Shown in pieces: positions 1 through 17,583 of a stretch of DNA of 56,691 nt. Position numbers and translations under genes: made by a program. Source of the DNA: Acidobacteriota bacterium (GTDB lineage: Bacteria > Acidobacteriota > UBA6911 > RPQK01 > JAJDTT01). The DNA lies in assembly GCA_028874215.1 (NCBI GenBank), contig JAPPLF010000024.1, positions 1 through 56,691 of the forward strand, written 5' to 3'. The number at the start of each line of letters is the position of its first letter. Within the stretch, counting starts at the first letter, position 1. Under the pieces are notes generated by a model, which worked only from the letters and a program-made list of their open reading frames with translations, was not told the DNA's origin and did not search any database.

Positions 1-1559
1 TGATGGAAGAATTATCGTGCAGAACGCTGACTCGACTTAATCAGACCTTCCTTAATCCCTGGTGCAACTCTTCCGGGAACTACTTAGCCGCCGTTGAGTG
101 GGGTGCCAAGACCCTTGACAGCCTTCAAGGGGAACTCGCTCCAACTGGCCAAGTGCAACCCGCAGACGCCACCGAACATCCGCTCCCCGACCAAACTGCG
201 GGAATCTGGTTCACCGACCCACCCTATTACTTCGCTGTGCCGTATGCAGATCTGTCTGATTTCTTCTTTGTGTGGCTGAAGCGAGTCCTGCCCGGCCACC
301 CTCTGTTTGGCAGTACCCTCTACGAGTCCCACGGTGGACTCACACCCAAGGAGCAGGAGCTTTGCGAGATGGCTCGTTGGGACTCTGTTCGATATGGACA
401 CAAGGATCATCAATTCTACGAAGACGGTATGGCCGAGGCGTTCGCCGAGGGGCGTCGCATACTGCGCGAGGACGGCGTGGGCTCGGTGGTCTTCGCCCAC
501 AAGACTACGGAGGGATGGGAGGCGCTGCTTTCGGGAATGATCCGCGGCGGCTGGACAGTCACCGGATCGTGGCCCATCGCCACCGAAATGGGGTCGCGCC
601 TGCGCGCCCGGGACTCCGCCGCCTTGGCCACGAGCGTTCACCTGATTTGCCGTCCTCGCCCGGATGATGCTCCCGTCGGCGACTGGGCTTCGGTCCTTCA
701 GGAGCTTCCTGTACGCGTGGCCGCATGGATGAAACGGCTTCAGCAGGAAGGCATCCGTGGGGCCGATCTGGTGTTCGCTTGTGTTGGGCCAGCGCTCGAG
801 GTGTTCAGCCGCTATCGCGCCGTCGAAACCGCCGAGGGGCGCGAGGTCGGCTTACCCGAGTACTTGGAGAGAGTCTGGCAGGTCGTGGGGCGCGCCGCGC
901 TCGAGCAGGTGCTCGGCACGGCCGACGCGGGCACGCTCGAAGAGGATGCGCGGCTCACCGCCCTGTTTCTGTGGACTCATCAGAGCACAGAAGTTGCTGA
1001 AGGGGCACCGACCAAGGAGGATCCGGCGGCCGTCAAGGCGGCGAAAGGACTCAGCCTTCCCTACGACGTGGTTCGCCGGTTCTCGCAACCCATGGGCATC
1101 GAACTCGACCGATGGACGGGTCGCATCATCGGCCAAAAGAAGGGTGTCGTGCGCCTGCTGCCCGTGTCGGAGCGGGCCGATGAGTTGTTCGGCCGGGACG
1201 GCGCGGACGCGGCGGCTGACTGGTTGGAGAGGGATCCGCGGGCGGACCTGCAACCGGCTCTTTTCCCCGATTGGGAGACGACGCCGACACCGATCGTACG
1301 CCGGCGGCTCGGGGCAAGATCGATCCTTGATCCCGACGACACGCTGCAGGGACCCGACGCGACGACGCTCGACCGCGTCCATGCGAGTATGCTCCTCCAG
1401 GCAAGCGGTCACGCGAACGTGCTCAGGAAGCTGATCGCGGCCGAACAGGAGCGGGGACCCGATTTCCTGCGACTGGCCAACGCGCTTTCTGCTCTCTACC
1501 CCCGCTGGAGCCGGGAGAAGCGCCTTCTGGATGCCATGATATTGGCCGTCCCGCGTTGA
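1..1559 (+). CDS. DUF1156-type adenine-specific DNA methylase, C-terminal part (5' end outside window)
   Basis: The visible 518 residues match the C-terminal half of the large DUF1156 'adenine-specific DNA methylase' family, proteins usually of about 900-1000 residues. The sequence just before the catalytic site (NPWCNSSGNYLAAVEWGAK) and the catalytic motif IV TDPPYY near residue 71, followed by YADLSDFFFVWLKR, are the readable family marks. DPPY is the catalytic loop of N6-adenine (amino) methyltransferases. The ATG at position 3 is probably internal, since the protein should start well upstream of the window. The gene is followed after about 125 bases by a DUF499 ATPase, the partner found with DUF1156 in Hma (helicase-methylase-ATPase) defence loci. 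The helicase would be expected upstream, out of view. Confidence 0.8.
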   Translation, partial: MEELSCRTLTRLNQTFLNPWCNSSGNYLAAVEWGAKTLDSLQGELAPTGQVQPADATEHPLPDQTAGIWFTDPPYYFAVPYADLSDFFFVWLKRVLPGHPLFGSTLYESHGGLTPKEQELCEMARWDSVRYGHKDHQFYEDGMAEAFAEGRRILREDGVGSVVFAHKTTEGWEALLSGMIRGGWTVTGSWPIATEMGSRLRARDSAALATSVHLICRPRPDDAPVGDWASVLQELPVRVAAWMKRLQQEGIRGADLVFACVGPALEVFSRYRAVETAEGREVGLPEYLERVWQVVGRAALEQVLGTADAGTLEEDARLTALFLWTHQSTEVAEGAPTKEDPAAVKAAKGLSLPYDVVRRFSQPMGIELDRWTGRIIGQKKGVVRLLPVSERADELFGRDGADAAADWLERDPRADLQPALFPDWETTPTPIVRRRLGARSILDPDDTLQGPDATTLDRVHASMLLQASGHANVLRKLIAAEQERGPDFLRLANALSALYPRWSREKRLLDAMILAVPR

Positions 1560-1685
1560 CATTCCGGAGACGGGTCGTCGAGCTTACTGGCAGGCCACCG
1601 GAAATGCTGTCGCCCGAACCGCAGCGCTGAAGCCGTCTGCCTGGGGTTGGGGTACGGACAAGCGCGAGCCATGAGGACAGTCGAC

Positions 1686-4487
1686 ATGGAACCTTGGTAC
1701 AGAGTGGCGACGTTGCGCTGGGAGGTACGGGAAGGCCGCTCCTTCAGTCCGGACCAATTCGCCATCGCGCTCGAACAGGTGGTCGCCGGAACCGCGCCAC
1801 CCGACTACAGCGACCCGGCGCAGTTCTTCGCGCGCACATGCTTCACGCGGGCGCTGAGGGAGCACGTTGGCATGGCGCTGCGCCGACTCTCGGGCAAGAC
1901 GGAGAACACGGCACCGGTCCTCACCCTCATCACTCAGTTCGGAGGCGGGAAGACTCACACCCTGACCTCCCTCTATCACCTCGCCAGCACGGGCGAGGCG
2001 GCCTCCGAGTTCCAAGGCGTGGGGAGTCTCCTCGAAGGGGAGGGGCTTGCAGCCGTGCCTTCGGCGCGGGTCGGCGTGTTCGTCGGCAACGCGTGGGACC
2101 CGGCCGAGGGCCGGGAGACGCCATGGATCGACTTGGCTCGCCAGGTGGCGGGCGAGCCCGGCGTCGCGGCGCTCGGGACCGCAACACGGACCACGCCCCC
2201 CGGGACCGCGACGCTGGGCAAGGTGTTCGCCGCCGCAGAAGCGCCCGTTCTGCTCCTGTTCGACGAGGTTCTCAACTTCGTGAACCGCCACCGCAGCATG
2301 GCCGATAGCTTTCACGCATTCATCCAGAACCTCACCGTCGCCGTCACCGGGACCACCCGCGCGGCCGCAGTCATCAGCCTGCCGCGCAGCCAAGTCGAAA
2401 TGACCGACTGGGACCAGCAATGGCAGGAAAAGATCCAGAAGGTCGTCGGCCGGGTCGCTCGCGACCTCATCGCGAACGACGAGGCGGAGATCAGCGAGGT
2501 CGTCCGGCGGCGGCTCTTCGAGGATCTCGGCGGAGCTCGGCTCCGCAGGAGGGTGGCCAACACCTATGCAAACTGGTGTTTCGAGCGCACTGCGCGACTC
2601 CCGCGCGAATGGCTGGCCGTGGACACGGCGACGACCGAGGCGAAGGCCCGGGAGTTCCTGCGCACCCGGTTCGAGGCCTGCTATCCATTTCACCCGGCGA
2701 CGCTCTCGGTGTTTCAGCGGAAATGGCGAGCGCTGCCGCAGTTTCAGCAGACTCGGGGCGCGCTCGCGATGCTCGCCCAGTGGGTATCGTGGGCCGCTCG
2801 CGAACACTTTCGAAAAGCGCGCACGGAGCCGTTGATCACGCTGGGATCCGCGCCGGTTCATGTGCCGGAGTTCCGCGCAGTGGTGCTGGGCCAGTTGGGG
2901 GAGCCGCGCCTCGACGCGGCCATCGAGGCCGACTTGGCCGGACAACAGGCTCACGCTCGCGCGCTGGACGCGGACGCCAGGGGTGCCCTGCGCGACATCC
3001 ATCGCCGCACCGGCACGGCCATCCTCTTCGAGTCGTCCGGCGGTCAGGTGGACAAGGTTGCGCACCTGCCCGAATTGCGGTTCGCGCTCGGCGAGCCCGA
3101 GATCGACACGACGACCGTCGACAACGCGGCGGCCGCCTTGGAGGCGGCCGGGTTCTTCGTCCGTAGCGTGGGGACGGACGGATACCGCATCCACCACCAA
3201 GCCACCCTGAGGAAGGTGGTCAGCGACCGCCGCGCCTCGCTGGACGAGGAGACCGAGGTCAAACCAGCCATCCGCAAGCTCGTCGAAGCGGAATTCGCGC
3301 GGGGAGCCACGCTGCCCCTCGTCCCTTTCCCCGCCACCACAATGGACATTCCGGACACGCCGCGCCTCTCGCTCGTGGTGTGCGATCCGGAGACGGAGTG
3401 GACGGTCGGCGGGATCGCGGCCGAGCGGATCGCCAAGTGGACCAGAAAGCGCGGCACGGATCGGCTCCATCCCGCTTCTCTCGTATGGTGCGTCAGAAAA
3501 CCCGGACGGCAGCTGCTCGACAAGGTCGAGCTTTGGCTGGCATGGCAGCGAGTCGCCGACGAAGTGGCGCAGGGTGTCCTGGGCGCGGACTTCGACCGCA
3601 CGGACCGTGCCGGGGTGAGTGCCCGGGTCAGGGATTCCGAGGGGGCCGCCAGAGACGAGGTCTGGGCGAGTTACCGCTTCGTCGTCCTGTCGGACAATAA
3701 CGCGGAGACCGGCCTCAAGGTCATCGACCTGGGCGCGGGCCATTCCAGCGGGAGCCAGACTCTTTGCGGCCGCATAACGAGCGCCATGAAGGCCGAGGCG
3801 CTTCTCAACGAGTCGGTGGGGGCCGGCTACATCGACCGGCACTGGCCGCCCGCGTTCGCCGACTCCGGGGCTTGGCCGCTCAGAAGTCTGCGCCAGAGCT
3901 TCCTTGACGGTTCGCTGACGCGGCTGAGCGATCCCGAGAAGGTCCTTCGACGGCAGATCGCCGCCCTCGTGGCCGCCGGCGAGTTCGGTTTGGCGTCCAG
4001 TGCCCGGCCCGATGGAGGTTACGGACGGTTCTGGTATGCGGAGCCGATCCGGCAGGAGGAAGTCGCGTTCGATCCGGAGGTCTTTCTCCTGACCAAGAGG
4101 AAGTCCGATGCCCTGAGAACCCCTCCCGAACCGGAGCCGTCTTCTCCCGAGCCGCCGACGTCCAGCCAGGCGGGGGCTGAACCCGAGCCGGATCCGGAAC
4201 CTCCGACCACCGGCGAGGAGTCGAGAGCGATCCTCCAGGTCCTCGGCACGATCCCCGCCGAAGTCTGGAATCGGCTCGGAGTCAGGATTCTGCCCAAGCT
4301 CCGGGCCTTGGACGACCTCCGTGTCGGCATTGAACTGTCGGCGACCGTCAACTCCAAGAGGGTCCAGAGTCTCGAGTCCGAACTGATTCAGGCCCTCCGG
4401 GATCTGGATCTGGGGGAGCGGGTTCGCATCGTCACGCGAGACGTCCGTTCTTTGCGCTCAACGTCCGCAGGCGATTCCTCAGGCTGA
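1686..4487 (+). CDS. DUF499-type AAA+ ATPase (Hma-like defence ATPase)
   Basis: A protein of about 933 residues. A Walker A motif (QFGGGKTH) is near residue 85 and a Walker B (LLLFDEV) near residue 190, both early in the protein as in the DUF499 family of ATPases encoded beside DUF1156 methylases. A proline/glutamate-rich linker lies at about residues 815-842, ahead of a short C-terminal domain. The reading frame is open further up to 1647. I chose ATG 1686 because AGGA lies about nine bases before it and because the protein then begins with the family-like MEPWYRVATL; ATG 1671 is also possible. It lies in the same direction as the methylase and is probably co-transcribed. Role in defence is inferred from the gene pair, not from the ATPase alone. 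Confidence 0.8.
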   Translation: MEPWYRVATLRWEVREGRSFSPDQFAIALEQVVAGTAPPDYSDPAQFFARTCFTRALREHVGMALRRLSGKTENTAPVLTLITQFGGGKTHTLTSLYHLASTGEAASEFQGVGSLLEGEGLAAVPSARVGVFVGNAWDPAEGRETPWIDLARQVAGEPGVAALGTATRTTPPGTATLGKVFAAAEAPVLLLFDEVLNFVNRHRSMADSFHAFIQNLTVAVTGTTRAAAVISLPRSQVEMTDWDQQWQEKIQKVVGRVARDLIANDEAEISEVVRRRLFEDLGGARLRRRVANTYANWCFERTARLPREWLAVDTATTEAKAREFLRTRFEACYPFHPATLSVFQRKWRALPQFQQTRGALAMLAQWVSWAAREHFRKARTEPLITLGSAPVHVPEFRAVVLGQLGEPRLDAAIEADLAGQQAHARALDADARGALRDIHRRTGTAILFESSGGQVDKVAHLPELRFALGEPEIDTTTVDNAAAALEAAGFFVRSVGTDGYRIHHQATLRKVVSDRRASLDEETEVKPAIRKLVEAEFARGATLPLVPFPATTMDIPDTPRLSLVVCDPETEWTVGGIAAERIAKWTRKRGTDRLHPASLVWCVRKPGRQLLDKVELWLAWQRVADEVAQGVLGADFDRTDRAGVSARVRDSEGAARDEVWASYRFVVLSDNNAETGLKVIDLGAGHSSGSQTLCGRITSAMKAEALLNESVGAGYIDRHWPPAFADSGAWPLRSLRQSFLDGSLTRLSDPEKVLRRQIAALVAAGEFGLASSARPDGGYGRFWYAEPIRQEEVAFDPEVFLLTKRKSDALRTPPEPEPSSPEPPTSSQAGAEPEPDPEPPTTGEESRAILQVLGTIPAEVWNRLGVRILPKLRALDDLRVGIELSATVNSKRVQSLESELIQALRDLDLGERVRIVTRDVRSLRSTSAGDSSG

Positions 4488-4554
4488 TTGGCAATCCAAG
4501 GCTTGGCCTGTCTCCACGGCGGTGTCTTCACGCAGGCGCTGGTGTACTCGAAGC

Positions 4555-4734
4555 TCAGGGTTTCCTTCTCCTGAACGGGAGGGGTTCGCACGGGTGGGCG
4601 CACCGGGGACAGGGTTTTCGGTGGCCCTGATAGCCGCAGTGCGCACAGCACCAGGTGCGCCGGCGTCGAGGCGCCTCGGCCGCTCGCTTTGCCGCCTGTC
4701 GCAGGTTACCGTTGTGCTCCCCCATGCGACGCAT
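4555..4734 (-). CDS. Small zinc-ribbon protein, intact ORF of the island repeat (copy F)
   Basis: A 59-residue ORF from ATG 4734. It is arginine-rich in its first half and then carries CAHCGY-x6-CPRC-x3-C, a treble-clef or zinc-ribbon-like cysteine pattern. The frame is open up to 4845. The segment just upstream on this strand (TCCCTGCGGGAAGGC, about 4787-4801) matches the segment that precedes the decayed zinc-ribbon ORFs of the other repeat copies at 6.5, 12.2, 14.3 and 15.6 kb. The upstream translation (RIPCGKAPAKIEE) also resembles copy B (IIPDGKAAAKNPE). I therefore read this as a sixth copy that lost the palindromic part but kept the ORF. Function unknown; nucleic-acid binding is a guess from cysteines and basic residues. 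Confidence 0.45.
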   Translation of the reverse strand: MRRMGEHNGNLRQAAKRAAEAPRRRRTWCCAHCGYQGHRKPCPRCAHPCEPLPFRRRKP

Positions 4735-4956
4735 TCTCTCACGACAGCCTGGAATTCTCCCTTCCTCAATCTTCGCAGGAGCCTTCCCGCAGGGAATCCT
4801 TGATTGAATCGGATACATCGTCCAGTTAAGTCCAGTATGGTTCATAAGTGTTTGTATTAGATTGACTTATCACTAGGTCAGACGTCCGAACTTGTCCCAT
4901 ACCGATCCGCTTCATCCCCTTGTATCCACCATATTGTGGTAGGTATAGTGGTATGT

Positions 4957-6156
4957 ATGACACTTACAAAACGAACTCCGAAACGCAAGCCGCGCGGCCG
5001 GCATCCCCTCAACGCCCTGACGCCGGCCCTTGTCCGAAACGTGAACCAGGCCGGACGCTATTGCGACGGCCACGGACTCTATCTCGACGTCCGGCCCACG
5101 GGCAGCCGTGGCTGGATTCAGCGCATCACCATCCGGGGCCGCCGAACCGAACTCGGGCTCGGCGGATTCCCCCTCGTCTCGCTCAAGGAAGCCCGTGAGA
5201 AGGCCTTCGCGAACCGGAAGCTGGCCCGAGAGGGGGGCGACCCCCGGGCCGAGAAGCGGCGGGCCGAGTCGATGCCCACTTTCGCCGACGCCGCCCGGAC
5301 GGTCTGGAAGCAGTTGCGGCCGGGCTGGCGCTCCCCCCTGCATGCGCAGCTCTGGCTGGGAAGCCTGGAGCGCCACGTCCTGCCTCATATCGGGAAGATG
5401 CCGATTGCGGAGGTGACGAGCGCCGACCTGATCGGCATCCTCGCTCCGATCTGGCACGAGAAGGCCTCCACCGCCCGCAAGCTGCGCCAGCGCATCCGCG
5501 CGGTCCTGGAGTGGGCCGTGGCGATGGATCTTCGGCCCGACAACCCCTGTGACCGGATCGGTCCGGTGCTCGGCTCGCAGGGAAACGCCGTGCGTCACAT
5601 GCGGGCATTGCCTCACGGTGAAGTAGCGTCCGCACTCCGGACGGTGCGGGCGTCGAAGGCGCGGCCGTTGTTGAAGCTGATGTTCGAGTTCCTGGTCCTG
5701 ACGGCGACACGCTCCGGCGAGGTCCGTGGGGCCGCGTGGAAGGAGATCGACCAGGAGGAAGGAGTGTGGACCATCCCGGCCGCACGGACGAAGGGGAATC
5801 GGGAGCATCGGGTCCCCTTGGCCCAACGAGCGTTGGAGATCCTGGAGGAGGCGCAGGCGCTCGGTGGCGGCCGCCCGCTCGTTTTTCCGAGGGTGGGTGG
5901 AAAGCCCATCGGGAATACGGCCATGTCGGAACTGCTGCGGGGGTTGAAGATCGCGGCGGTGCCGCACGGGTTCCGGTCGAGCTTTCGCGACTGGGTGGCG
6001 GAGGAGACGGATCATCCGCGCGAGGTGGCGGAGGCGGCGTTGGCGCACAAGGTCCGCAACCCGATCGAGGCGGCCTACCGGCGCACGGACCTGTTCGAGC
6101 GCCGGCGTCGCCTCATGGACGACTGGGCGAGCTATCTGGCCGGCGAGAGTCGGTAA
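4957..6156 (+). CDS. Tyrosine recombinase / P4-family integrase
   Basis: A 399-residue integrase. The N-terminus (DGHGLYLDVRPTGSRGWIQR, then the L-G-x-FPLVSLKEAREKA segment) is the arm-binding DUF4102 domain of prophage and island integrases. A SAM-like core-binding domain follows, then the catalytic domain with Arg in ATRSGE (about residue 252), Lys in TKGNREHRVPL, HGFR (about 337), His in LAHKV and Tyr in AAYRRTD (about 373): the full R-K-HxxR-H-Y set, so it is probably active. GTG 4936 is in frame, but ATG 4957 is preferred. It does not lie next to a recognisable tRNA, so its own attachment site was not identified. A structured repeat (copy A) begins 92 bases downstream. Confidence 0.9.
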   Translation: MTLTKRTPKRKPRGRHPLNALTPALVRNVNQAGRYCDGHGLYLDVRPTGSRGWIQRITIRGRRTELGLGGFPLVSLKEAREKAFANRKLAREGGDPRAEKRRAESMPTFADAARTVWKQLRPGWRSPLHAQLWLGSLERHVLPHIGKMPIAEVTSADLIGILAPIWHEKASTARKLRQRIRAVLEWAVAMDLRPDNPCDRIGPVLGSQGNAVRHMRALPHGEVASALRTVRASKARPLLKLMFEFLVLTATRSGEVRGAAWKEIDQEEGVWTIPAARTKGNREHRVPLAQRALEILEEAQALGGGRPLVFPRVGGKPIGNTAMSELLRGLKIAAVPHGFRSSFRDWVAEETDHPREVAEAALAHKVRNPIEAAYRRTDLFERRRRLMDDWASYLAGESR

Positions 6157-6248
6157 CCGGTATCTGATCGGCTCCGTTGATCCGCCGTGATCGTCCCACC
6201 GGCAGTTTTCGCGATCTGGCGTTCGAGCCGGCTTCCGGGAGGTCGATC

Positions 6249-6809
6249 TTGACCGCTGAAAAGTGGGGTTCGGTGTCGATCCGGGAGTGTAAGTGAGACA
6301 ACGGGGGCGACTTACATCAGGGGAGTGATTTCACTTACACGCGCGAGTTCCCCGATCTCCTTGCCCCTCTTGCGGTTACGGCCCCATTTCCGGCCACCGG
6401 GTGGCCGCACGGGGAAAGTGGAGGTGGACGGGAGCGACCCCCCCCTTTTTCCTGCCCGGTGCGGGCGCGGGGGTGTGGCGCAACTTACACTTGCGCAACA
6501 CCCCCTGGGGGGGTCGCTCCCTTCCAAAATATCCCTTGGCGGGAAGGCCAGAAATGACACCCGTGACGGGCCTGATGGGCCGCATGAAGTCTCCGGCATC
6601 CACGAGCAACGGCTGGAGGCCCTCAGGAAGCAGGCGGTGGAGAGGCTCCGCGCCCGCCGCGCTGACCGCTGTCCGGACTGCGGCTATCGGAACGTCCAGA
6701 GAGACTGTCCCCGCTGCGGTGAAGCCTGCGAGACTGCGACTCGGCCACCCTTATGAACTTCCGGCAAACCGATGCCGGATGACGGGAGTTCCTGGTCGGG
6801 CCGGGCGAG
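6249..6809 (+). repeat. Island repeat copy A (structured palindrome plus decayed zinc-ribbon ORF)
   Basis: The most complete copy. It opens with TTGACCGCTGAAAAGTGGGG. The variable word reads GTGTAAGTG at 6287, and its complement recurs at 6309 (GACTTACAT), 6332 (CACTTACAC) and 6483 (ACTTACAC). The nested palindrome has an outer 15-base perfect stem at 6430-6444/6507-6521 (GGGAGCGACCCCCCC and complement) and an inner 15-base stem at 6469-6483/6491-6505 with one mismatch and loop CTTACAC. Next comes TCCCTTGGCGGGAAGG, a Shine-Dalgarno-like stretch before ATG 6554. The small ORF has one base fewer than copies C and D after MGRM, so it is frameshifted, but its second part is intact: RLRARRADRCPDCGYRN followed by CPRCGEAC. 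Similarity to copy C continues to about 6809. Confidence 0.8.
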
Positions 6810-7117
6810 CAACATTGCGAGCGTGGCGGAGAGATCAACGAGAGCCTTTGGCGTTGGATGGAGTCGCGCCCTTGTACCTAGTGTGGACGTGACGCTGGTA
6901 TCGTGGCCCGCCTCAGTGACCGTTGCCAGCACGCATTGCGGACGCCGCGCCATCGGGAACAGACCGAAAAAAAGAATTGAGCCCGGGCCTCACAAGGCAC
7001 CGATACTTGCCCACAACCGAACCTCACCCGGAATAGGTGACCGAAGGTGATCTCGGCGAGAAGACTCCCGCCAAGCTGCTGAACTTTTGGAGAGGCTTGA
7101 CTCTGTAGCGCGTAACC
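6810..7117. other. Intergenic, nothing recognised
   Basis: Between repeat copy A and the end of the convergent endonuclease gene I see no ORF with protein-like composition, no RNA gene and no clear hairpin terminator. Confidence 0.4.
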
Positions 7118-8290
7118 TTAGCCAAGCTCGCCCTGTGTCAGCTCAAGCCAACGTGTCACTGCCTCCGGCGTGGCCTCGACGCCAATCAGCCGGTCACGGA
7201 TCGAGGTGACGGCTTCGTGTGCGGCAATCGGTTTGGGCGGCTGGCTCCAGAAGAGGACCTGCTCGACGAAGTCGGACCAACTCTCGAAAACGGTCAGGCC
7301 GACGCCAAGGTCATCGGCCCATTCTGTCAGCGTAGCCTGCTCCAACGACTCTTGGCGAATGCACACAATGACTAACGCCGCTTCCCGTGCGCCCATTTGG
7401 ATGCATTTTCGGACAAAGATACGGACATCGGACGCCGTCACCGGCTTGTCCCGGACCTCGATCGCCTTCTCGATGTCGGTAGTATCGGAATCCATTAGCA
7501 CGCAGACATCGCCCGGATGCTTCCGGCTGGGGTCGTTGACTCGACCGGTCTCTACCCGGTCGGGGCCAGCGAACAGATCCATCAGACCAGCGACTACGGC
7601 CTGGGCGCGTCGTCCACCCTCCGAATCTTGCTCGACGAATTCCCGGATTACTTCGGCCAACCGATCTGGAGTGATCTCGAACTCGCCCTCCTGCCACGTG
7701 TAATGAGGTTGGTAGCGGCGGCGCACAGCAACGAAGGCCCGGAGGGCGGCCCGCGCTTCCGCCTCGTCCTCGAGATCGTTCAGCTTCCGCACCAGCCGAA
7801 CCGTGTATTCGAACGCTGCACGGGCGCGCGGATGTACCGGCGTACCGTCATCCAGTCGCGACATTCGAAAGTACGGTTGGTTGTTTAGCGGCTCGCGGCC
7901 AGTCACGCCGATGTGGAAGCCCAGCTCCGCAGCTAGCGGAACGAGAACGCTATGGCAGAGGCTGCGTGCGGAAAACGCGTTCGGATTCCCAGGCGCATGG
8001 GTCGGCTTGATGGCGAACAAGTCGGCGCGACGATCAACCGCCTTCGCGAGCATGGCTGTTCCCAGAAAGGCGATGTGCGTGTTGGACTTGGCCTCCGCGC
8101 AGAGTTGCGAGAGGTGCTCGACTCGATCCGTCCACGCCGAGACGGCGTGAGCCGCATCAGGCTGATCCGCTACGTCATGGCGCGAAGACTGCGGGACGCC
8201 CAGTTGGGAAGCTCCAGAGGGGAGGACCTGACGCGGTGGAGCGACCGAGTCACGCAGCGCCTGGGCGGCGAGTTCTCTGTCAATCCGCAT
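7118..8290 (-). CDS. Putative type II restriction endonuclease (SacI-like)
   Basis: A 390-residue protein forming a module with the HTH controller and a C5 methyltransferase. The likely catalytic stretch in the C-terminal half is GDVCVLMDSDTTDIEKAIEVRDK, a D...E-x-R/K arrangement reminiscent of PD-(D/E)XK nucleases. Gene order (R, short controller, divergent m5C methylase) and sizes resemble the SacI system as I remember it. The family name is from memory and needs a profile search. I prefer ATG 8290, which has GAGGA upstream and overlaps the controller's stop by 11 bases, over ATG 8305. The overlap implies translational coupling to the controller, a normal way to delay endonuclease synthesis. 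The stop faces copy A. Confidence 0.55.
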   Translation of the reverse strand: MRIDRELAAQALRDSVAPPRQVLPSGASQLGVPQSSRHDVADQPDAAHAVSAWTDRVEHLSQLCAEAKSNTHIAFLGTAMLAKAVDRRADLFAIKPTHAPGNPNAFSARSLCHSVLVPLAAELGFHIGVTGREPLNNQPYFRMSRLDDGTPVHPRARAAFEYTVRLVRKLNDLEDEAEARAALRAFVAVRRRYQPHYTWQEGEFEITPDRLAEVIREFVEQDSEGGRRAQAVVAGLMDLFAGPDRVETGRVNDPSRKHPGDVCVLMDSDTTDIEKAIEVRDKPVTASDVRIFVRKCIQMGAREAALVIVCIRQESLEQATLTEWADDLGVGLTVFESWSDFVEQVLFWSQPPKPIAAHEAVTSIRDRLIGVEATPEAVTRWLELTQGELG

Positions 8291-8558
8291 CGTGGGTGTC
8301 CTCATCGGAGGCGCGCAGTTCGAGAAGATCGCCGGGCGCGCAGCCTAACGCGATGCAGAGTTTCTCGATCGTACTGAGGCGGGTGTTGTAGGTCCTGCGG
8401 GCGGCGATAGACTCGACCGTAGTCTTTGCGAGCCCGGTGCGAGCAGCAAGAAGCTCATAGGTCATGCGCTCGCCGGTCCGGCGCTGATGCTCCTCCATTG
8501 CCTTCCGAAGCCGTACCCGTAGCAAGAGACTCTCCGCAGCCCGTGGTTGTATTGACAA
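8280..8558 (-). CDS. HTH (XRE-like) controller protein of the restriction-modification module
   Basis: A protein of up to 92 residues. A helix-turn-helix domain of Cro/C1 type is readable: MTYELLAARTGLAKTTVESI, then RLSTIEKLCIALGCAPGDLL. It lies directly before and overlapping the endonuclease gene, the usual position of a C (controller) protein. The longest frame starts with TTG at 8558. That codon lies inside a perfect 17-base palindrome (8547-8563), and a GATACT box (8563-8568 on the other strand) ends only a few bases before it, so the message would be leaderless or nearly so. A shorter protein starting at a later codon is possible. Expected role: self-repression and timing of endonuclease expression. 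Confidence 0.75.
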   Translation of the reverse strand: MSIQPRAAESLLLRVRLRKAMEEHQRRTGERMTYELLAARTGLAKTTVESIAARRTYNTRLSTIEKLCIALGCAPGDLLELRASDEDTHDAD

Positions 8559-8563
8559 TACAA
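8547..8563. promoter_or_regulatory. Perfect 17-base palindrome, probable controller-protein operator
   Basis: TTGTATTG-A-CAATACAA is perfectly self-complementary about a central A/T. It overlaps the start codon and transcription start zone of the controller gene and lies in the 81-base divergent interval before the methyltransferase. Position and symmetry are as expected of a C-box or XRE-dimer operator. That the controller binds here is inference. Confidence 0.6.
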
Positions 8564-8568
8564 GTATC

Positions 8569-8600
8569 TTTGGATAGCTTTCACTCGTTCGTAATATACT
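8569..8600 (+). promoter_or_regulatory. Probable promoter of the C5 methyltransferase gene
   Basis: A good -10 box TATACT lies at 8595-8600, with a weak -35 candidate TTTGGA/TTGGAT at about 8569-8575. The start codon follows 39 bases downstream. The controller palindrome is centred just upstream of the -35 region, so the controller could also affect this promoter. Confidence 0.45.
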
Positions 8601-8639
8601 AGACCAACTCGCCAGAAAACACCGATAGGAGGCGGCCTC

Positions 8640-9830
8640 GTGGGACGGCGGCTAACAGCGATCAGCCTGTACACCGGTGCCGGCGGCCTTGATTTTGGTT
8701 TCGAGGCGGCCGGCTTCGACACGAGGGTGGCCGTGGAGATGGATCCAGCTTCCTGTCGCACGGTGCGGCTCAACAGACCGCAGTGGGGACTTCTCGAAGG
8801 AGACATCCACGGGATCGCATCGGCGGCGATTCTGGAAAAGGCCGATCTGGGGGCGGGAGAGGCAGATGTACTGATCGGTGGCCCCCCCTGCCAGCCCTTT
8901 TCGAAGTCGTCCTACTGGGTAAATGGAGACGCGGGCCGACTCGAAGATCCCCGTGCAGATACCCTTTCGGCGTACCTGCGGGTTCTGCGGGACACGCGAC
9001 CGAAGGCGTTTCTCCTAGAGAACGTGTACGGCTTGGTCTACAAAGGGAAGGACGAAGGGCTACGGCATCTGATCGAAGGCTTCGAGCGCATCAACCGCGA
9101 GACTGGGACTAACTACGTAGTTAGTTGGAGAATGCTCAACGCGGCGCACTATGGCGTACCGCAACGCCGCGAGCGAGTCTTCTTGATTGGGAGTCGCGAT
9201 GGGGTGGAGTTCCGTTTCCCGGAGCCCACTCACATGGAAGCGGGGGAGAATAGGCTATTCGACCACCGCGAGCCGTACCGGACCGCTTGGGATGCGATCG
9301 GGGACTTGATCGATCAGCCGGGCGAGCCTGCGCTTACGGTTGGCGGCAAGTGGGCGGACCTACTGCCCACCATTCCCGAGGGGAAGAACTATCTTTGGCA
9401 CACGAATCGAGGCGGCGGATCACAACTGTTCGGTTGGCGAACCCGTTACTGGAGCTTCCTCCTCAAGCTCGCCAAGAGTCTGCCGTCTTGGACGATTCAG
9501 GCACACCCGGGCTCGTCCATCGGTCCATTCCATTGGCGCAACCGCAAGCTCTCAGTCGAGGAAATGTGCCGTCTCCAGACCTTCCCCGCCTTGGAGTTTG
9601 AGTGCAGCCGCACGGTCGCGCAAAGGATGTTGGGCAACGCTGTCCCTTCACTCCTCGCCGAAGTGCTAGCTAGGGAGATCCGGCGTCAGCTACTGGGAGA
9701 CCAGAACGATCCCGGCCCCCTTCGGCTCATACCTCCGGTTCGGACGCCTGTACCCGACCCCGACCCGACTATGGAGTTGCCCCAGAAGTACCGCACGCTG
9801 ATCGGATCGTATCCGGATCATCCTGGCTAG
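8640..9830 (+). CDS. DNA (cytosine-5-)-methyltransferase of the R-M module
   Basis: A 396-residue m5C methyltransferase that protects host DNA from the neighbouring endonuclease. Motif I is SLYTGAGGLDFGFEAAGF at the N-terminus. Motif IV is GGPPCQPFS, with the catalytic Cys around residue 83. Motif VI contains ENV and motif VIII is QRRERVFLIG. The target-recognition region follows, and motifs IX-X end with QRMLGNAVPSLLAEVL. The start is GTG 8640, supported by AGGAGG eight bases upstream. It is divergent from the controller/endonuclease pair. All key residues are visible, so it should be active. The recognised sequence cannot be read from the protein. Confidence 0.93.
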   Translation: MGRRLTAISLYTGAGGLDFGFEAAGFDTRVAVEMDPASCRTVRLNRPQWGLLEGDIHGIASAAILEKADLGAGEADVLIGGPPCQPFSKSSYWVNGDAGRLEDPRADTLSAYLRVLRDTRPKAFLLENVYGLVYKGKDEGLRHLIEGFERINRETGTNYVVSWRMLNAAHYGVPQRRERVFLIGSRDGVEFRFPEPTHMEAGENRLFDHREPYRTAWDAIGDLIDQPGEPALTVGGKWADLLPTIPEGKNYLWHTNRGGGSQLFGWRTRYWSFLLKLAKSLPSWTIQAHPGSSIGPFHWRNRKLSVEEMCRLQTFPALEFECSRTVAQRMLGNAVPSLLAEVLAREIRRQLLGDQNDPGPLRLIPPVRTPVPDPDPTMELPQKYRTLIGSYPDHPG

Positions 9831-10169
9831 GGGGTTCGGAGGTAGGCCAATCCGGGACGGGTTGTTTGACAGCGCTGCCGACATCGAATCGAGCCCGGGC
9901 GGGCGATCCCCTGAGCAGCTCCGACCTGCCGGACTGATCCTACCGAAGTGTTGGTAGCACTGGCCGATCGGCCGCCGCAAGAAGATCAAGTGCCCCCGAC
10001 CAGAATCAGCGGCTTGGACCCTCGGAGGTATGAAATTGACAAGCTCACGAAGGATCAGGAGAATGGTCAGTAATTTGGCGTCGGGTTGCTGACTCCTCAA
10101 CGATTGCCATTCGTTGTCTTCCACAGGATCTTGTTCACGCATTAGGCTCTCATCCGACACAGGATGATT
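9831..10169. other. Intergenic, nothing recognised
   Basis: A stretch of about 340 bases between the convergent methyltransferase and unknown operon. Frames here are short or look like shadows. No clear U-tailed hairpin was found. Confidence 0.4.
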
Positions 10170-10775
10170 TCACGGTCCCCGCTGAAGCTTCACCCTAGTC
10201 GGGGTTGGCTTAAACTCATCGTTCGCTCTTAATGCGATTGACAGCAGGCGTGTCTTGACCGTTTCTTCGGCCCCCAATAAATCCGCGAGGTGGTCAAGCG
10301 CCAGACCATAGGCGCACCAGAGGCGGCCCCACCACACTGCGAATCTCAAGTAAACTCCCGGATTATCCTCTTCCTTATCCGAGAACCCTCCGTTGGAGAG
10401 CGGCATTAACAAACCGAGAGGGGTCGGGTGGTCGTACTCGGACAGCCCGTTCTTAGTCTCGACATCCCACCAGATGCGATCCGCGTCGAGTCGGAACTCG
10501 TCTGGTAGATCCCTCCAGATGGAATGCATCTGTCTGTAGGCTGCCTTGAGGTCAACCGCCATTAAGTGCAGACCCTCCGTGGCAACCGGGCACTTTGTGG
10601 CCGCCACTGTGTGGAGGCATACCTTCCGCAGCCGGAAGATCCAGTCGGGTTCGTCCGGATCGACCTTCCGTCCCGAGGGGTCGATTTCCATGTGGACCTG
10701 GACTAGTTCTCGGCATAGATCACGGTGCTCTTTGCACAGGCAGCGTTGTTCATTAGCAGGTTCAAGTGTTTCCAT
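10170..10775 (-). CDS. Hypothetical protein, second gene of a two-gene island operon
   Basis: A protein of about 201 residues that I do not recognise. I chose ATG 10775 (METLEPANEQ), which has GGAAAGCAGG just upstream and overlaps the preceding gene by 14 bases; the frame is open to 10808. Cysteines cluster near the N-terminus (CLCKEHRDLC) and another pair follows (VCLHTVAATKC). The C-terminal half is rich in Trp and Leu (WWGRLWCAYGLALDHLADLLGAE), suggesting a helical domain. No signal peptide is seen. The overlap with its neighbour implies the two products act together. Confidence 0.6.
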   Translation of the reverse strand: METLEPANEQRCLCKEHRDLCRELVQVHMEIDPSGRKVDPDEPDWIFRLRKVCLHTVAATKCPVATEGLHLMAVDLKAAYRQMHSIWRDLPDEFRLDADRIWWDVETKNGLSEYDHPTPLGLLMPLSNGGFSDKEEDNPGVYLRFAVWWGRLWCAYGLALDHLADLLGAEETVKTRLLSIALRANDEFKPTPTRVKLQRGP

Positions 10776-11643
10776 CCTGCTTTCCCGTCCTGGTGTCGCT
10801 GATAGCAACTTCGACCACCTTTGATGACTCGTGTATCTCCTTTAATTGAGTCTCCGACTGTTCTATCAACTGACTATTCTGTGCTCCCTCCACCGGGATA
10901 AAGGACGCAGCTGAGTTCATGACCGACACTTGTCTCGCCAAGTAGTCCATCATGCACAGGAACACAACCGCATCTTCCGTCCTATTGAAGGTCATGACGC
11001 CTCCCAGTCGTGACCTTCCCTTCAAATCCGCTTTCCTGCCGTGGGTGAAGTAGTCGCTCAAGTAACCATATGACTCCCGCCCGCCCATGAGAGAAGACAC
11101 CTTGTCCGATTGTGTCAGACGTTTCCCTTTCCGCCTCATTGGTTCGGGGGCGCCAACGGACGCGGCTGCGGATGCCTCCGCCTGCAGTTCGATTTCACGC
11201 AACTCTTGGGAGGCAATTTGGCCCCTGGTTACCCGACTGAGCGTCTGGAAATGGTCTGAATTGATCCGGTCCGCGACGTTCTCGGCGAACCTACGACCAC
11301 GGCGCGTTCGCAGGTCAGGTCTGGCGGTTCTGCTGTAAGCGTGGAATACGATTTGCCCCGCGCATTCGAGAACCGGTCTCATTTGAACCGCCAGCGAATG
11401 CAGATTCCCGGACTCTTTGGCCCGGAGGACTGCGGACGTGTGTATCCGGGCCTTGCGGAGTAACAGCGGGACCACGACCCGGTCCATCGCGGTCGGGTCG
11501 GCGGCTCGTGAACGGGCCTCGGACATACCTCCTGGGAAATTGAGATACCGTTCGAGGTCACGGGTTGTCACGATCGCCTTCCGAAGCCGTTCGGCCATGT
11601 CTATACGTGAACGGGAAATGCCGACACTCAAGGTCTCGTTCAT
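10762..11643 (-). CDS. Hypothetical protein, first gene of a two-gene island operon
   Basis: A 293-residue soluble, mostly helical protein. The segment KARIHTSAVLRAKESGNL followed by QMRPVLECAGQIVFHAY resembles the helical 'many small hits on R-x-x-x-E' pattern of DUF5677-like/HEPN-neighbour proteins, but I cannot assign a family with confidence. A basic stretch (EPMRRKGKRLTQSDK) occupies the middle. It overlaps the downstream gene by 14 bases. Being between an R-M module and mobile repeats, a defence or regulatory role is possible but unproven. Confidence 0.6.
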   Translation of the reverse strand: MNETLSVGISRSRIDMAERLRKAIVTTRDLERYLNFPGGMSEARSRAADPTAMDRVVVPLLLRKARIHTSAVLRAKESGNLHSLAVQMRPVLECAGQIVFHAYSRTARPDLRTRRGRRFAENVADRINSDHFQTLSRVTRGQIASQELREIELQAEASAAASVGAPEPMRRKGKRLTQSDKVSSLMGGRESYGYLSDYFTHGRKADLKGRSRLGGVMTFNRTEDAVVFLCMMDYLARQVSVMNSAASFIPVEGAQNSQLIEQSETQLKEIHESSKVVEVAISDTRTGKQDGNT

Positions 11644-11866
11644 GGCGTTGGACTAGGATCTTGTCTCTGAAACGAGGGAGAACCGGAATGGTGAGGATAG
11701 CAGATCCCGAAGACGGTGCCCAAGTCCTACGCAGAACACCATCAGACCCATTTGCAGTCCTCCGTTCGCCTTCGTGTCAGGCAATCTTCTTCCAGAAATG
11801 CGGAGTGTGCTGAAAGGGACGCGGGCCGATTCGACGGCTATGGCAGCGTCAGGGCCTCGCTGAGAC
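11644..11866. other. Intergenic, upstream region of the 10.2-11.6 kb operon
   Basis: No gene recognised. The promoter of the minus-strand operon should lie here, but I see no convincing -35/-10 pair. Confidence 0.3.
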
Positions 11867-12300
11867 CGGCCATCGAGTGGCGACCAGGGGCGGAAGATCG
11901 CGACGCTGGCGTGGAGATCGACGACGACATTCGCGACGCTCTCGTGGCGGGCGACACGCTTGCCGGGGAGCTCATTTTGACGGGTACAGAGCGCCCCACC
12001 GTGTCGATCCGGGAGTGTAAGGGAGACAACGGGGGCAACTTACATCATGGGAGTCTGCCAACTTACACACGCGATTTCCCCGATCTCTTTGTCGCTCATG
12101 CTGTTACGGCCATGTTTTCGGCTCCGCCGTGCCCGCACGGGGAAATCGGAGGTGGACGGTAGCGCCCCCCCTTTTTCCTGCCCGGTGCGGGCGCGGGGTT
12201 GTTGCGCCATTCACATTTGCGCCACACCCCCTGGGGGGGCGCTCCCGTCGAAATTATCCCTGACGGGAAGGCCGCTGCGAAGAATCCGGAAGACCTGTTA
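11867..12300 (+). repeat. Island repeat copy B
   Basis: From about 12001 it follows copy A: word site 1 GTGTAAG at 12015, site 2 CTTACA at 12039 and site 3 CTTACAC at 12062. Site 4, in the inner loop, reads ATTCACA at 12209, which is the word of copy C. Copy B therefore looks chimeric. Its outer stem lacks the A and the T that pair in other copies (GCGCCCCC with GGGGGCGC in place of GCGACCCC with GGGGTCGC), a paired change that keeps the stem. After the palindrome, TCCCTGACGGGAAGGC leads into IIPDGKAAAKNPE, then no zinc ribbon. Upstream, 11867-11985 is similar to the flank of copy E and looks like a relic of a protein's C-terminus (LVAGDTLAGELILT). Confidence 0.75.
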
Positions 12301-13224
12301 GGGCTCTGCAAGGCGTCCGTTCACGACACGTGGTGCGTGATCCAGGGATGACCACAGGCGACACGTGCCAATGGGGTCCGCTGGTGCAGGTGGATTTTCG
12401 GCGTCCTCTTGGACGAGGACCTGGCCCGAACCCCGGACGGCCTGAACTCGGAGCGTGAGGTGGAGGTCGGCGACGGGGTCCGCTCCAGGTCCTGAGCGGC
12501 GATGCGGCCGGTCCGGGTGGTGGTGGTCCGGCCGTCGAGAGCCGCCTCCACGTCGTGGCGGCACCGGAGCAGGCGCCGGACGAGGCGCGGGGCGCGGTTT
12601 CTCCGGCAACCCGGAACGGATGACGGACCGGGGGAACCGATCCCCCCAGACCCCCCAGTGGCGCGAGAACCCCGGGCGGTTCACCTTGCCGCCAGTGAAC
12701 CGGGCGCTCCTGTTCGTCGCGCGTCCCATGAGAATGGGACCCTCGCGCGGTCTCGTCGGGCTTCCAGCCGGAAGTGAGACGTCGGCTCGTTCCGAAAGTC
12801 CTGGCCATACGGACCCGGTCGGCTCCGAATGGATGCCTCCGATTTCCGGGGCGCGCAGGCTCTTGAAACCTGGGAGTCGAGGCGAGAAACTCGTTCCTGG
12901 AGTCCACGGACCTCCAATAGTCAAAGACTACCGAACGTTAACGTTTTCAATGGATTACCGGGTTCTTCGCCGAATCGGTAAAGTGGTTGACTCCCCATGT
13001 CTGACGTGCTGAACAGGCAACAAACAGGCAGCCGAGTAGGCTCCTGAAAGCGACGCGCCCTTTTCCCCTTCCGTTGCCTGGCTCAGAGATACCGTGAATT
13101 CAGTCTGTCGATCATTCGTCAATAGGGCGTGGATGGCTTTGGAGAACCTACTTGAAGACTTGTCCGAGGCCAACACTCGCCAAAACGTGGCCCGAACGCC
13201 ATCAGGCATACTAATGTGTCCTGA
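12301..13224. other. About 920 bases without a recognisable gene
   Basis: Several open frames of 80-217 codons exist on both strands, but they are proline/arginine/glycine-rich shadows typical of high-GC non-coding DNA and lack family motifs. Around 12936-12947 there is a doubled AACGTT. No RNA gene was recognised. The stretch probably consists of decayed insertion remnants. Confidence 0.4.
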
Positions 13225-13239
13225 TATACTTTTTTGATG
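13225..13239 (+). promoter_or_regulatory. Extended -10 element directly before truncated bamD
   Basis: TG-A-TATACT (13222-13230) is an extended -10 box ending six bases before ATG 13237. There is no Shine-Dalgarno sequence between, so the transcript would be nearly leaderless. Confidence 0.4.
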
Positions 13240-13794
13240 GGCATTCTGATCAGACGGTTTTTGTTGCCAATTTCCCTAACCATCCTTCTGATCTCCTGCA
13301 CGGACCACGAGGGAGTGGAACTCCAGGAGGAGCGCCGTGGCCCGGCTCAAACACTTTTTGAAAACGGAATGGAATTCCTAGCCAAGAAGCACTTCATCAA
13401 GGCGCGCCTTTCCTTCCAGACGCTCATCAGCACCCATCCAGAGAGCGAATACACTCCGGCCTCGTTCCTTTCCATCGCCGACTCCTATTACGAGGAAGGG
13501 GGCAAGGAGAACCTGCTGCAAGCGGGTGCTCAATACAAGGACTTCATCATATTCTATCCCACCCACGAAAGCGCCGACCACGCCCAGATGCGGATCGCCG
13601 CCATCAACTACCGGCTCGGGAAACCTTATGAGCGGGACCCCACCTACATCCGCAAGGCGGAGGTCGAACTGAAGAAGTTTCTGGACGAGTTCCCGGACAG
13701 CGAGTTGGCGCCGACAGCGGAAGAGTTTCTCAGGCAAATTCGTGAGAATCTCTCCAAGTGCCCAGGTCCGCAAGAAGGGACAAATACCCAATAA
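13237..13794 (+). CDS. BamD-like outer-membrane assembly lipoprotein, C-terminally truncated
   Basis: A 185-residue protein. A lipoprotein signal (MGILIRRFLLPISLTILL, then IS-C) is followed by TPR-like units of the BamD/ComL type: QTLFENGMEFLAKKHFIKAR, SEYTPASFLSIADSYYEEG and KFLDEFPDSELAPTAEEFLRQ. BamD anchors the BAM complex that inserts beta-barrel proteins in the outer membrane. Family members run some 60 or more residues further. Here the family match stops near residue 172 (RQIRENL), and the last 13 residues (SKCPGPQEGTNTQ) do not fit. The break therefore falls at about 13,755, some 300 bases before repeat copy C. It is probably a displaced or disrupted gene; another bamD copy is expected elsewhere. 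Confidence 0.7.
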   Translation: MGILIRRFLLPISLTILLISCTDHEGVELQEERRGPAQTLFENGMEFLAKKHFIKARLSFQTLISTHPESEYTPASFLSIADSYYEEGGKENLLQAGAQYKDFIIFYPTHESADHAQMRIAAINYRLGKPYERDPTYIRKAEVELKKFLDEFPDSELAPTAEEFLRQIRENLSKCPGPQEGTNTQ

Positions 13795-14039
13795 AGTTCT
13801 TTGGCAAGAAAGTGCCGAACTCCGAGCCCCCCTGTGCCCCAGACCTGTAGCCACGTTCACGGGGAAAGCAAGGGCTCTCGACTCCTACGGCGGGGTGACG
13901 GCCGCCTTGAAGCGGACGGTCGAATTGAAACCAACGGCAGAAGGTCGCTCCTTCCAGGTCGTGATCGACGGTGAACGCACTTAGCAATCGCGAGGGCCGA
14001 TGGAGGCTCGTTTCGGCGGTGCGAAAAGGGGGTCTCGCG

Positions 14040-14571
14040 CCCGATCCGGGATGTGAATGGGAAAAAGGGGGTGGATTCACAAAAAGTGGTCCCGATGACT
14101 CACAAAACCGCTTTCCCCGATCTTTTTTCCTTTCAGGCAGTTACGGACCCATTTCCGGCCACAGGGTGGCCGCACGGGGAAAACGGAGGTGGACGGGAGC
14201 GACCCCCCCTTTTTGCTGCCCGGTGCGGGCGCGGGGGTGTTGCGCCATTCACATTTGCGCAACACCCCCTGGGGGGTCGCTCCCGTCGCAATTATCCTGG
14301 CGGAAGGCCATGAAAAGACACCCGTGACGGGCAAGATGGGTCGCATGAGCGCCCCTGATATCCACATGGAACGGCTGGAGACTCTCAGGAGACAGGCAGT
14401 CGGGAGGCTGCGCGCCCGCCGCGCTTAACTCTGTCCGGGCTGTGGCTATCGGAGCTTCCAGAGAGGTTTTCCCCGCTACGGTGAAACCTGCGAGACTGCG
14501 ACTCGGCCACCCTCATGAAATCCGGGCGAACCGGTGCCGGATGCCGGGTGTTCCGAGTTGGGCCGGGCGAG
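14040..14571 (+). repeat. Island repeat copy C
   Basis: Same layout as copy A but with a different word: TGTGAAT at 14052, ATTCACA at 14075, ACTCACA at 14098 (one difference) and ATTCACA at 14247 in the inner loop. The outer palindrome stems are 14195-14208 and 14271-14284. The ORF after the palindrome keeps frame through KTPVTGKMGRMSAPDIHMER and RLRARRA, then hits an in-frame TAA (14426-14428) before the ribbon. Two ribbon cysteines are also changed (FPRYGETC instead of CPRCGEAC). Similarity to copy A continues past the ORF to about 14571. Confidence 0.8.
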
Positions 14572-14860: not shown

Positions 14861-14895
14861 ACAACGGCTAGTACCTCAGGGGGAACTTCCAAGCT

Positions 14896-15162: not shown

Positions 15163-15192
15163 CCTCCCTGCCTCCGGACGAGTCCTCCGTCA

Positions 15193-15354: not shown

Positions 15355-15775
15355 CTGGGCTCGACCGCTGAAAGAAGGCATTTCGTGGCGGTCGGGGGGC
15401 GCACATGAGACAACGGGGGGCATGTGCACCATGAGGGCTCTTCGACGTGCACGGCGACTTTTCTCTAACCTGCTGTCCCCGTTCGGGTTACGCATCGCCT
15501 CGCGGCTCGGCGGTGCCACAAGGGGAAAGTGGAGGTGGACGGGAGCGACCCCCCCTTTTTGCCTCCCGGATCGGCAATGCGGGGCAGGCTGATGTGCATG
15601 GCCGTGCCATCGCCTGGAGGGTCGCTCCCGTCTCATCTATCCCTGTCGGGAAGGCCACGAATGACACCCGTGACCGGCAAGATGGGACGCATGAACGTCC
15701 CCGACATCCACGAAGAACGGCTGGAGACCCTCAGGAGATGGACTCTGGACCGGCTCCGGAGGTGGAGCGCCTAAA
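15355..15775 (+). repeat. Island repeat copy D, with short ORF
   Basis: This copy carries a third word: GCACATG at 15401, CATGTGC at 15421, ACGTGCA at 15445 (one difference) and ATGTGCA at 15592 inside the palindrome. The loop GAGACAACGGGGGG between the first two is as in copies A and B. The outer stem is 15541-15551/15619-15629; the inner stem is different from copies A-C. The ORF begins at ATG 15661 behind GGGAAGG and reads MTPVTGKMGRMNVPDIHEER onward. It stops at 15774, before where the zinc ribbon would be. Confidence 0.75.
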
Positions 15776-16607: not shown

Positions 16608-17189
16608 TTCGAGTCCAAGGGCAATCGCCCTACCTTCCAGTTCAAACCCACTTTCTCATTGGCGCCTCCTCTTCCTCAAATTTCCAGACTGAGACTTTGG
16701 TCGCGGGGTCCTGAGTTCGAAACGCTTGACGGCCGATCGGACGATCTCCTTGATGTCGTCGGCTTTGCGAAGGGTGGAGGGTTTAAGCTGGATCTGCGCG
16801 GTACTGTCGGGATGAACCCGGGGGTGCTCGGAGAACCGTATGGGCACCCAATCGCCCGTGTCTAGAGAGAGTCTGTCATGATGAGTCCGATCCCGGCTCG
16901 CTGCCCCGTGGAGGGAGCGGAGCGACCGGAATGGGGTCGCGATCAGACCCTGACATTTTCGATGCCCATTGACAGGCGCTTCGTCAGGTGTTCGTCCCCC
17001 ATAGAGCGCGAGGCCGCAGGCCCGGCTCAGGAAGTCAACCCACACGGCTTGACCGAACGGTTACGTCCATTCACGTCCACGAAAGGCCGCGGACATCCGT
17101 TTCATATCGGTGGAAAGAATGGGGGGAAGACCGGATCCGGACAATACATAACTCGTTTATGGTGAGTGGTTTACGGAAATTAGAGAAAC
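16608..17189. other. About 580 bases without a confident gene
   Basis: A minus-strand frame of 129 codons (16656-17045) has a partly protein-like middle (GDWVPIRFSEHPRVHPD, ADDIKEIVRSAVKRF) but no start signal and a shadow-like N-terminus. I leave it as a possible decayed gene. Confidence 0.3.
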
Positions 17190-17583
17190 AGTCCGCAGGG
17201 ATCAATGAGAAGGGAGCGACCCCCCCAGGGGGTGTGGCGCAGATGTAAGTTGCGCCACGCCCCCGCGCCCGCACCGGGCAGGAAAAAGGGGGGGTCGCTC
17301 CCTTCCACCTCCGCTTTCCCCGTGCGGGCGTGGTGAAACCGGGAATGTGGCCGTAACGGCATGAGCGCCAAAGAGATCGGGGAAATCGGAGGTGTAAGTC
17401 AAAAGGCTTCCGGGATGGAACTCGGGTCCATTGTCTCCCTTACACTCCCGGATCGGCACCGTACCCCACTTTTCAGCGGTCAAGATCAGCCTCCAGCGAA
17501 CGCGTTGCCCGCCACGAGGAATAGCCGTCGCTGACCACGCCGAACGAGCGATCCTTCGCCCCTGGTGGCAACTCCATTGGCCG
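17190..17583 (-). repeat. Island repeat copy E (reverse orientation)
   Basis: Read on the minus strand it starts with GATCTTGACCGCTGAAAAGTGGGG (ending near 17487), identical to copy A. Word sites on that strand: GTGTAAG (17439-17445), GACTTACAC (17392-17400) and ACTTACAT (17243-17250) in the inner loop. Site 2 is degraded. The outer stem 17212-17226/17288-17302 is a perfect 15 base pairs, the same as copy A. The zinc-ribbon part is absent. The flank at 17488-17583 matches the flank of copy B and looks like the same decayed coding relic (LVAGNAFAGG). Confidence 0.75.

Follow-up and report, generated by a model that had tools for sequence, protein, structure and literature searches.

A probable oriT-like site with variable sequence words, and an adjacent zinc-ribbon gene family, in Acidobacteriota genomes

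The locus

The window analysed here is a continuous stretch of 56,691 nucleotides from the genome of an Acidobacteriota bacterium. Near its left end, the minus strand carries a small zinc-ribbon open reading frame (ORF; rib2, 4555..4734), which encodes 59 amino acids from its ATG in a frame that is open to 4845, with the pattern CxxCGY-x6-CPRC-x3-C. The ribbon lies on the lower-coordinate side of a core sequence (TTCCCTGCGGGAAGG, 4782..4796, minus strand) and an integrase on the higher-coordinate side. The upstream region of this integrase (4797..4935, plus strand) is conserved in six type-II integrase copies, where it is bounded by a core or a decayed core, and is likely the att arm of the type-II integrase. 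The gene itself (4936..6156, plus strand) encodes an Arm-DNA-bind_3 tyrosine recombinase of type II according to Pfam and has 16 matches in the genome.

To the right of the integrase lie copies A to E of a repeat, which consists of a structured part of ~290 bp (S) and a terminal core of the form ATCCCTG(N)CGGGAAGG. Within each S, an 8-bp word appears about four times: M1 is forward, M2–M4 are reversed, and M4 sits in a hairpin loop. The words fall into the classes GTGTAAG (1a), GTGAATG (1b), GTGCAC (2) and GTGTTCCAC (3). Copy A (6257..6530, plus strand) is a structured site with a covariance-model match at 6421-6550 (E 5.7e-28); its words lie at 6287-6294 (M1, GTGTAAGT), 6310-6317 (M2), 6333-6340 (M3) and, in the hairpin loop, 6483-6490 (M4), and its core is ATCCCTTGGCGGGAAGG (6531..6547, plus strand). 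Copy B with its core (11995..12271, plus strand) is a mosaic of word class 1a and loop class 1b and has a right half of type Q. Left of copy C is a remnant of the C-terminus of a gene that we call X (13877..13984, plus strand; tblastn 50% to X of locus L208, E 2.6e-7). Copy C with its core (14030..14308, plus strand) has word class 1b, as in a block of X, S and coupling-protein gene on contig C96 of the same genome, and copy D with its core (15360..15654, plus strand) has class 2, GTGCAC. Copy E, with a partial core, lies on the minus strand (17185..17494).

Remnants of the ribbon gene follow three of these copies on the plus strand, and here the sequence-only reading proved accurate in its details. 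Remnant A (6554..6757) has a one-base deletion (ATGAA-GTC versus ATGAGCGTC) and retains its cysteines in a second frame. Remnant C (14312..14520) has an in-frame TAA and has lost cysteines, remnant D (15661..15771) is truncated, with an early stop where the family sequence runs out after 37 codons, and copies B and E have no ribbon.

The window has further features outside the repeat copies. An HmaB-like methylase C-terminus and an HmaC-like ATPase (PADLOC) occupy 3-4487, ending beside the rib2-core junction, and are likely a Hma defence system. Between S copies A and B (7118-9830) are a SacI-like restriction endonuclease (PF09566), an ORF like an XRE regulator, and a C5 methylase (PF00145). 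An HU/IHF gene (PF00216) at 14896-15163 recurs ~96% identical behind ribbons on contigs C48 and C40; such an architectural protein beside the sites may be meaningful. A second, distantly related Arm-DNA-bind_3 integrase (17946-19121) adjoins a tRNA remnant (19284-19339), and the two together are probably the outer boundary of the island. Tandem AATGGGGACAGTC(TGGATCTC) repeats occur at 56323-56673; comparable GGGACAGTC runs are present close to integrases on G000:C93 (L107) and close to a ribbon on G002:C5 (L026).

A family of small zinc ribbons

The translation of the 4555-4734 ORF reads MRRMGEHNGNLRQAAKRAAEAPRRRRTWCCAHCGYQGHRKPCPRCAHPCEP... and has the motif CAHCGY-x6-CPRC-x3-C. A 67-aa ribbon from another genome of the same genus, used as a single query, retrieves this ORF in the window's genome with E 1.3e-6 and also the decayed ribbons at 6571, 14318 and 15661. 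An alignment profile matches it with E 7.6e-27, a value to be read with the ORF itself among the profile rows. Judged from these comparisons, the ORF is a divergent yet genuine member of a family of 59-67-residue zinc ribbons, which bears out the initial claim that it keeps a ribbon of the same pattern as the decayed copies. It had also been placed behind the same segment as those copies; it does stand behind the core, but without the palindrome, and the far side of its core is the 140-bp integrase upstream region.

The search for intact homologues that the sequence-only reading had proposed was successful. Intact 67-aa ribbons stand behind the palindrome on G000:C40, G001:C3, G001:C53 and G003:C598, and intact ribbons in this position occur in the window's genome, in sister genomes and in another order. 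Relatives are present in a Gemmatimonadota MAG (L163) and a Bryobacterales MAG (L164); rib2 of the window and the intact rib2 of L164 have 84-86% nucleotide identity, with homology beginning exactly at the core. The proposed dN/dS check gave a divided answer. In one example among intact copies, 16/148 nonsynonymous and 19/44 synonymous sites have changed, with nonsynonymous changes the rarer (Fisher p 6e-6), whereas the ratio is near 1 for rib2 of the window versus L164. On these counts, purifying selection is acting on intact ribbon copies, although not visibly in the rib2 pair, and most copies are decayed.

The ribbon has four-cysteine CxxC..CxxC knuckles. Its predicted model has a helix at residues 13-35 followed by the ribbon (pLDDT 72), and the nearest folds are the Nop10, LapB and aIF2-gamma ribbons, all with E>0.08. 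It passes no curated Pfam cut-off (best PolC_DP2_central, 19.0 versus 24.3 bits; DZR, 16.5 versus 27.3 bits), and IMG/VR contains no relatives. Matches in Nitrospirae and Thermococcus were rejected as homologues; from their sequences and general knowledge, we take them to be a RadA zinc finger and DNA polymerase II, respectively. The predicted helix and four-cysteine ribbon would fit a small nucleic-acid-binding protein; any more specific role is a guess from position.

The structured site and its words

The palindrome had been thought to multiply within the island. It also lies outside the island, with 42 DNA matches across the 5.7-Mb genome. This and other copy counts come from fragments; the genomes are MAGs in which many contigs end at the repeats, and the S regions of contigs C40 and C96 contain poor sequence. 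About 40 S-core copies are dispersed through the genome, often beside defence genes. The repeat also has matches in all three sister genomes and in none of the 56 further genomes searched.

S forms a much more stable fold than shuffled sequences do (z -4.1 as RNA, -5.9 as DNA), and its pairs are preserved by double changes (e.g., U-A 20/C-G 11; C-G 24/A-U 4/U-A 1). In all copies, the long hairpin stops shortly before the conserved core, so that an inverted repeat lies 5' of a nick-like sequence. No Rfam family reaches gathering score near S in 4400-19500. The core is itself an inverted repeat (ATCCCTGnCGGGAAGG) and terminates nearly every S copy, with or without a following ribbon. The GGGAAGG that had been read as a Shine-Dalgarno-like element is shared as claimed but is not specific to ribbons: it is the right arm of ATCCCTGnCGGGAAGG and may double as a Shine-Dalgarno sequence.

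The word varies hugely between copies and agrees within a copy. M1–M3 share one class, and M4 sometimes has another (window copy B, L021, L030, L033 and L048). Permutation tests in the genus, in which M1 is compared with M2, M3 and M4 of its own and of other copies, give p 2e-4 each.

Complete sites between conjugation genes

A covariance model of the hairpin and core detects the site in three further families of the phylum, with eight genomes in all. In the best-represented of these families, the complete order is integrase, X, S-core, a TraG/VirD4-type coupling protein (PF12696, PF10412) and VirB11 (PF00437), with VirB4-, VirB6- and VirB8-type genes nearby, a neighbourhood such as an oriT is expected to have. 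The coupling-protein gene begins close behind the core in the other-family loci. In G189, the site lies in the middle of a tra block that is flanked by S-adenosylmethionine synthetase (metK) and sigma-54 (rpoN) genes on a 145-kb contig; with this internal position it does not, in this one clear case, mark the end of an integrated element. A single block of this kind is present in the window's own genome: on C96, VirB4-like and TrbI genes are followed by X, S (class 1b), the core, the coupling-protein gene and VirB11. A Cas1 gene with a DEAD/ResIII helicase follows this block (L208/L232).

X is a protein of ~325 aa with an HTH-like variable segment. It has no family or match in Pfam, NCBIfam, PHROGs or the PDB, no relatives in IMG/VR and none in PLSDB plasmids, where the coupling protein has one remote match (29%). 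A single-sequence fold of X has pLDDT 38 and was used for secondary structure only; it has a helical, HTH-like N-terminus. A PF03432 relaxase domain is present in G136, G229 and G182, and in the window's genome on a different contig from the C96 block; none was found in G189. On G136:C3, a 71-kb contig with the PF03432 relaxase at 47.3 kb, matching ORFs indicate that the opening ~2.7 kb is repeated 29.4 kb further along (L219/L220). On G160:C10 (1167-1693, L186), two S-like sites face each other ~280 bp apart, with words that resemble window-genus classes 2 and 1b.

In the other families, the word differs in almost every S (TGCCACAA, TGGAAGAA, CTTGAAAT, CTGAAAAA, etc.), while its positions stay constant within a frame that is conserved. 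Within a copy, M1 agrees with M2, M3 and M4 more closely than it does with the M2, M3 and M4 of different copies (permutation p 5e-5, 1e-4 and 2e-3 in the other family). The most variable stretch of the other-family X proteins, alignment columns 48-63, is a putative HTH recognition helix, and the low-confidence model also has helices at these columns. The X pair L184/L191 has the same helix and shares the word TTGTGCCG, while X proteins with CRRNRALRF from different taxa (L164, L209) have the common word GTGTTCCAC. This agreement between helix and word in the sequences compared is to some extent confounded by relatedness.

Such a neighbourhood could be read as regulatory, with S a cis-regulatory region. 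X would then control its own expression through the words as operators, and the hairpin would act in the mRNA, as a leader or attenuator, on the coupling-protein gene (or the ribbon). The HTH-like variable segment in X, the genes that begin close after the core, the RNA fold (z -4.1) and a GGGAAGG well placed as a ribbon Shine-Dalgarno sequence are consistent with this idea. Dozens of copies nevertheless persist without X or a coupling protein and with unrelated right halves, left and right halves are exchanged at the core, and Rfam gives no match. We regard a regulatory region as quite improbable; the presence of S inside tra genes demotes both this RNA-leader reading and one in which S is an attP arm.

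Exchange of halves at the core

The sequence-only reading had treated the repeat as a structured leader that multiplies together with its gene. What stands is that a tiny ribbon gene repeatedly follows the structured repeat directly, has multiplied and is mostly decayed; the single unit does not. Among 39 S copies, the right half is a ribbon in 18, type Q in 5 and type R in 4, with the remainder mostly single. Ribbon, Q and coupling-protein-type right halves each occur behind S classes 1a, 1b and 2, with no association (chi-square p 0.80). Sequence distances in two blocks of S correlate with r 0.83, whereas S and ribbon distances correlate with r 0.03-0.12. In a Mantel control, the 5' and 3' halves of the ribbon have r -0.14 and odd versus even columns r 0.65; since the ribbon halves are also uncorrelated, the S-ribbon distance test has limited power, and more weight falls on the finding that right-half families combine freely with S classes. 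A small mobile element that carries leader and ribbon gene as a single unit would explain the 18 direct successions and the purifying selection on intact ribbons, but it is very hard to reconcile with uncorrelated ancestries, with about half of the copies having no ribbon, and with S in other families standing without a ribbon between X and a conjugative coupling-protein gene; we give it almost no credence. Overall, the initial observations were partly confirmed and their interpretation partly supported.

The junction in the dispersed copies is the core: on its left stands an integrase or an X tail, and on its right a ribbon, a coupling-protein start or other cargo. Several dispersed copies of the genus have the tail of X to the left of S or the start of the coupling-protein gene to the right of the core, and L020 and L027 have both. 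Left of the core, rib2 of the window has the integrase upstream region and rib2 of L164 has a class-3 S, in the order X, S, core, rib2. The two are alike only from the core onward, which indicates exchange at the core that is common to different lineages.

These exchanges bear on a further alternative, in which the Arm-DNA-bind_3 integrase uses S-core for attachment. On this view, crossover would take place in the core, the words would be arm-type sites, and tandem accretion would have left the copies behind as attL/attR scars in an integron-like cassette island. Swapping of right halves at the core is as expected, as are the constant spacing of 390-393 nt from integrase stop to core in several copies, the inverted repeat in the core, and type-II integrases that directly adjoin the core with the ribbon on the far side (window, L120, L122). 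Complete sites, by contrast, lie between T4SS genes, and the G189 site is internal to the block flanked by metK and rpoN rather than at an element end, in that one clear case. The upstream region of type-I integrases has a conserved boundary of its own, ~200 nt ahead of the start codon, and many S copies adjoin X and not an integrase gene. An attachment site is thus an unlikely account of S as a whole, although part of the shuffling may be integrase work because type-II integrase elements are joined at the core.

Comparison with known systems

MOBP relaxases cut (C/T)ATCCTG(C/T) next to an inverted repeat (PMC3772185). The MOBP oriT nick regions of RP4, Ti and tfs4 VirD2 (PMC3772185) resemble the sites described here in their position next to coupling-protein and T4SS genes and in an inverted repeat that precedes ATCC(C)TG-C by no more than ~10 nt. 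The core here (ATCCCTGC, ATCCCTG(C/G)) differs in one extra C, and its neighbour X is no recognisable relaxase. Because the core is one C longer than the consensus, we claim resemblance to MOBP sites and not membership.

The closest precedent is the staphylococcal pWBG749 family, in which SmpO decides the oriT subtype and mobilizable plasmids carry oriT mimics (PMC8136818). This family (SmpO/ossA-ossB) shares a conserved oriT frame, short subtype-specific sites, specificity set by an adjacent DNA-binding protein, and mimics on non-conjugative elements (PMC8136818). One specificity site of its oriT lies within an arm of an inverted repeat; another, which can have either orientation, is some 65 bp distant (PMC8136818). 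The words described here likewise co-vary within a copy and go with an adjacent putative DNA-binding protein, X (permutation p 5e-5 to 2e-3). Unlike staphylococcal plasmids, these Acidobacteriota genomes carry words ~4 times per site and ~40 copies per genome, and X, with ~325 aa and an HTH-like segment, differs from the small ribbon-helix-helix protein of pWBG749.

Mobilizable elements are known that have an oriT and no relaxase (iOriT; PMC11389934), as are IMEs that integrate in oriT (IME_oriTs; PMC7563843). Both share with the elements here the combination of integrase, oriT-like site and cargo, and insertion in oriT (PMC7563843) recalls the type-II integrase elements joined at the core. 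Here, however, the integrase is an Arm-DNA-bind_3 tyrosine recombinase, no own relaxase gene was seen in the elements, and mobilisation is putative. Relaxase-mediated integration into oriT is known for TrwC (PMC3264647). Integrons, with their attC cassettes, are comparable in having arrays of structured sites between cargo genes, in one orientation in the window except for copy E, with right halves exchanged at the site. They differ in that the window integrase is Arm-DNA-bind_3/Phage_int_M, with PRK09692.1 as its best NCBIfam match and not IntI, S is ~290 bp with variable words, and its complete form lies in a tra operon.

A probable transfer site and its implications

We consider it probable, on balance, that S and the core are an oriT-like site of integrative conjugative elements and that the many copies are oriT copies or mimics on integrative mobilizable elements. 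This reading of the sequences rests on a structured intergenic site by coupling-protein and T4SS genes, words matched to a putative DNA-binding neighbour, and a nick-like core beside an inverted repeat. X would bind the word through its variable HTH and recruit the transfer machinery, and a candidate relaxase, either X itself or another protein, would nick at ATCCCTG/CGGG. Elements of integrase, S and cargo without their own X could be moved in trans by co-resident elements, e.g., by the X-S-coupling protein block on C96. DNA to the right of the core would enter the recipient first, and the ribbon is the commonest gene on that side; it may belong to the leading region and encode a small, basic protein that binds nucleic acid and acts soon after transfer. 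New combinations of left and right halves would arise by recombination at the core, through the relaxase or through a core-inserting type-II integrase, with decaying ribbons left behind.

A broader proposal is possible, and we offer it tentatively: these sites may belong to an undescribed Acidobacteriota conjugation module in which X, perhaps a new relaxase or relaxosome specificity factor, and its oriT diversify together. The helix and the ~4-fold 8-bp word would change in step and produce many mutually exclusive specificities, and dozens of oriT copies would be integron-like joints through which defence cargo is put together and exchanged among sponge-associated bacteria, with the zinc ribbon entering first. 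The sponge origin of the MAGs is our assumption from general knowledge.

If the oriT-like reading is true, defence genes in uncultured Acidobacteriota, such as Hma and the SacI-like restriction system in the window and Cas1 on C96, would gather and move through many oriT-like sites with exchangeable specificity words. X is a candidate relaxase or specificity family without a match in the family libraries tried. A computable code that relates the recognition helix of X to the 8-bp word could then predict which element mobilises which island.
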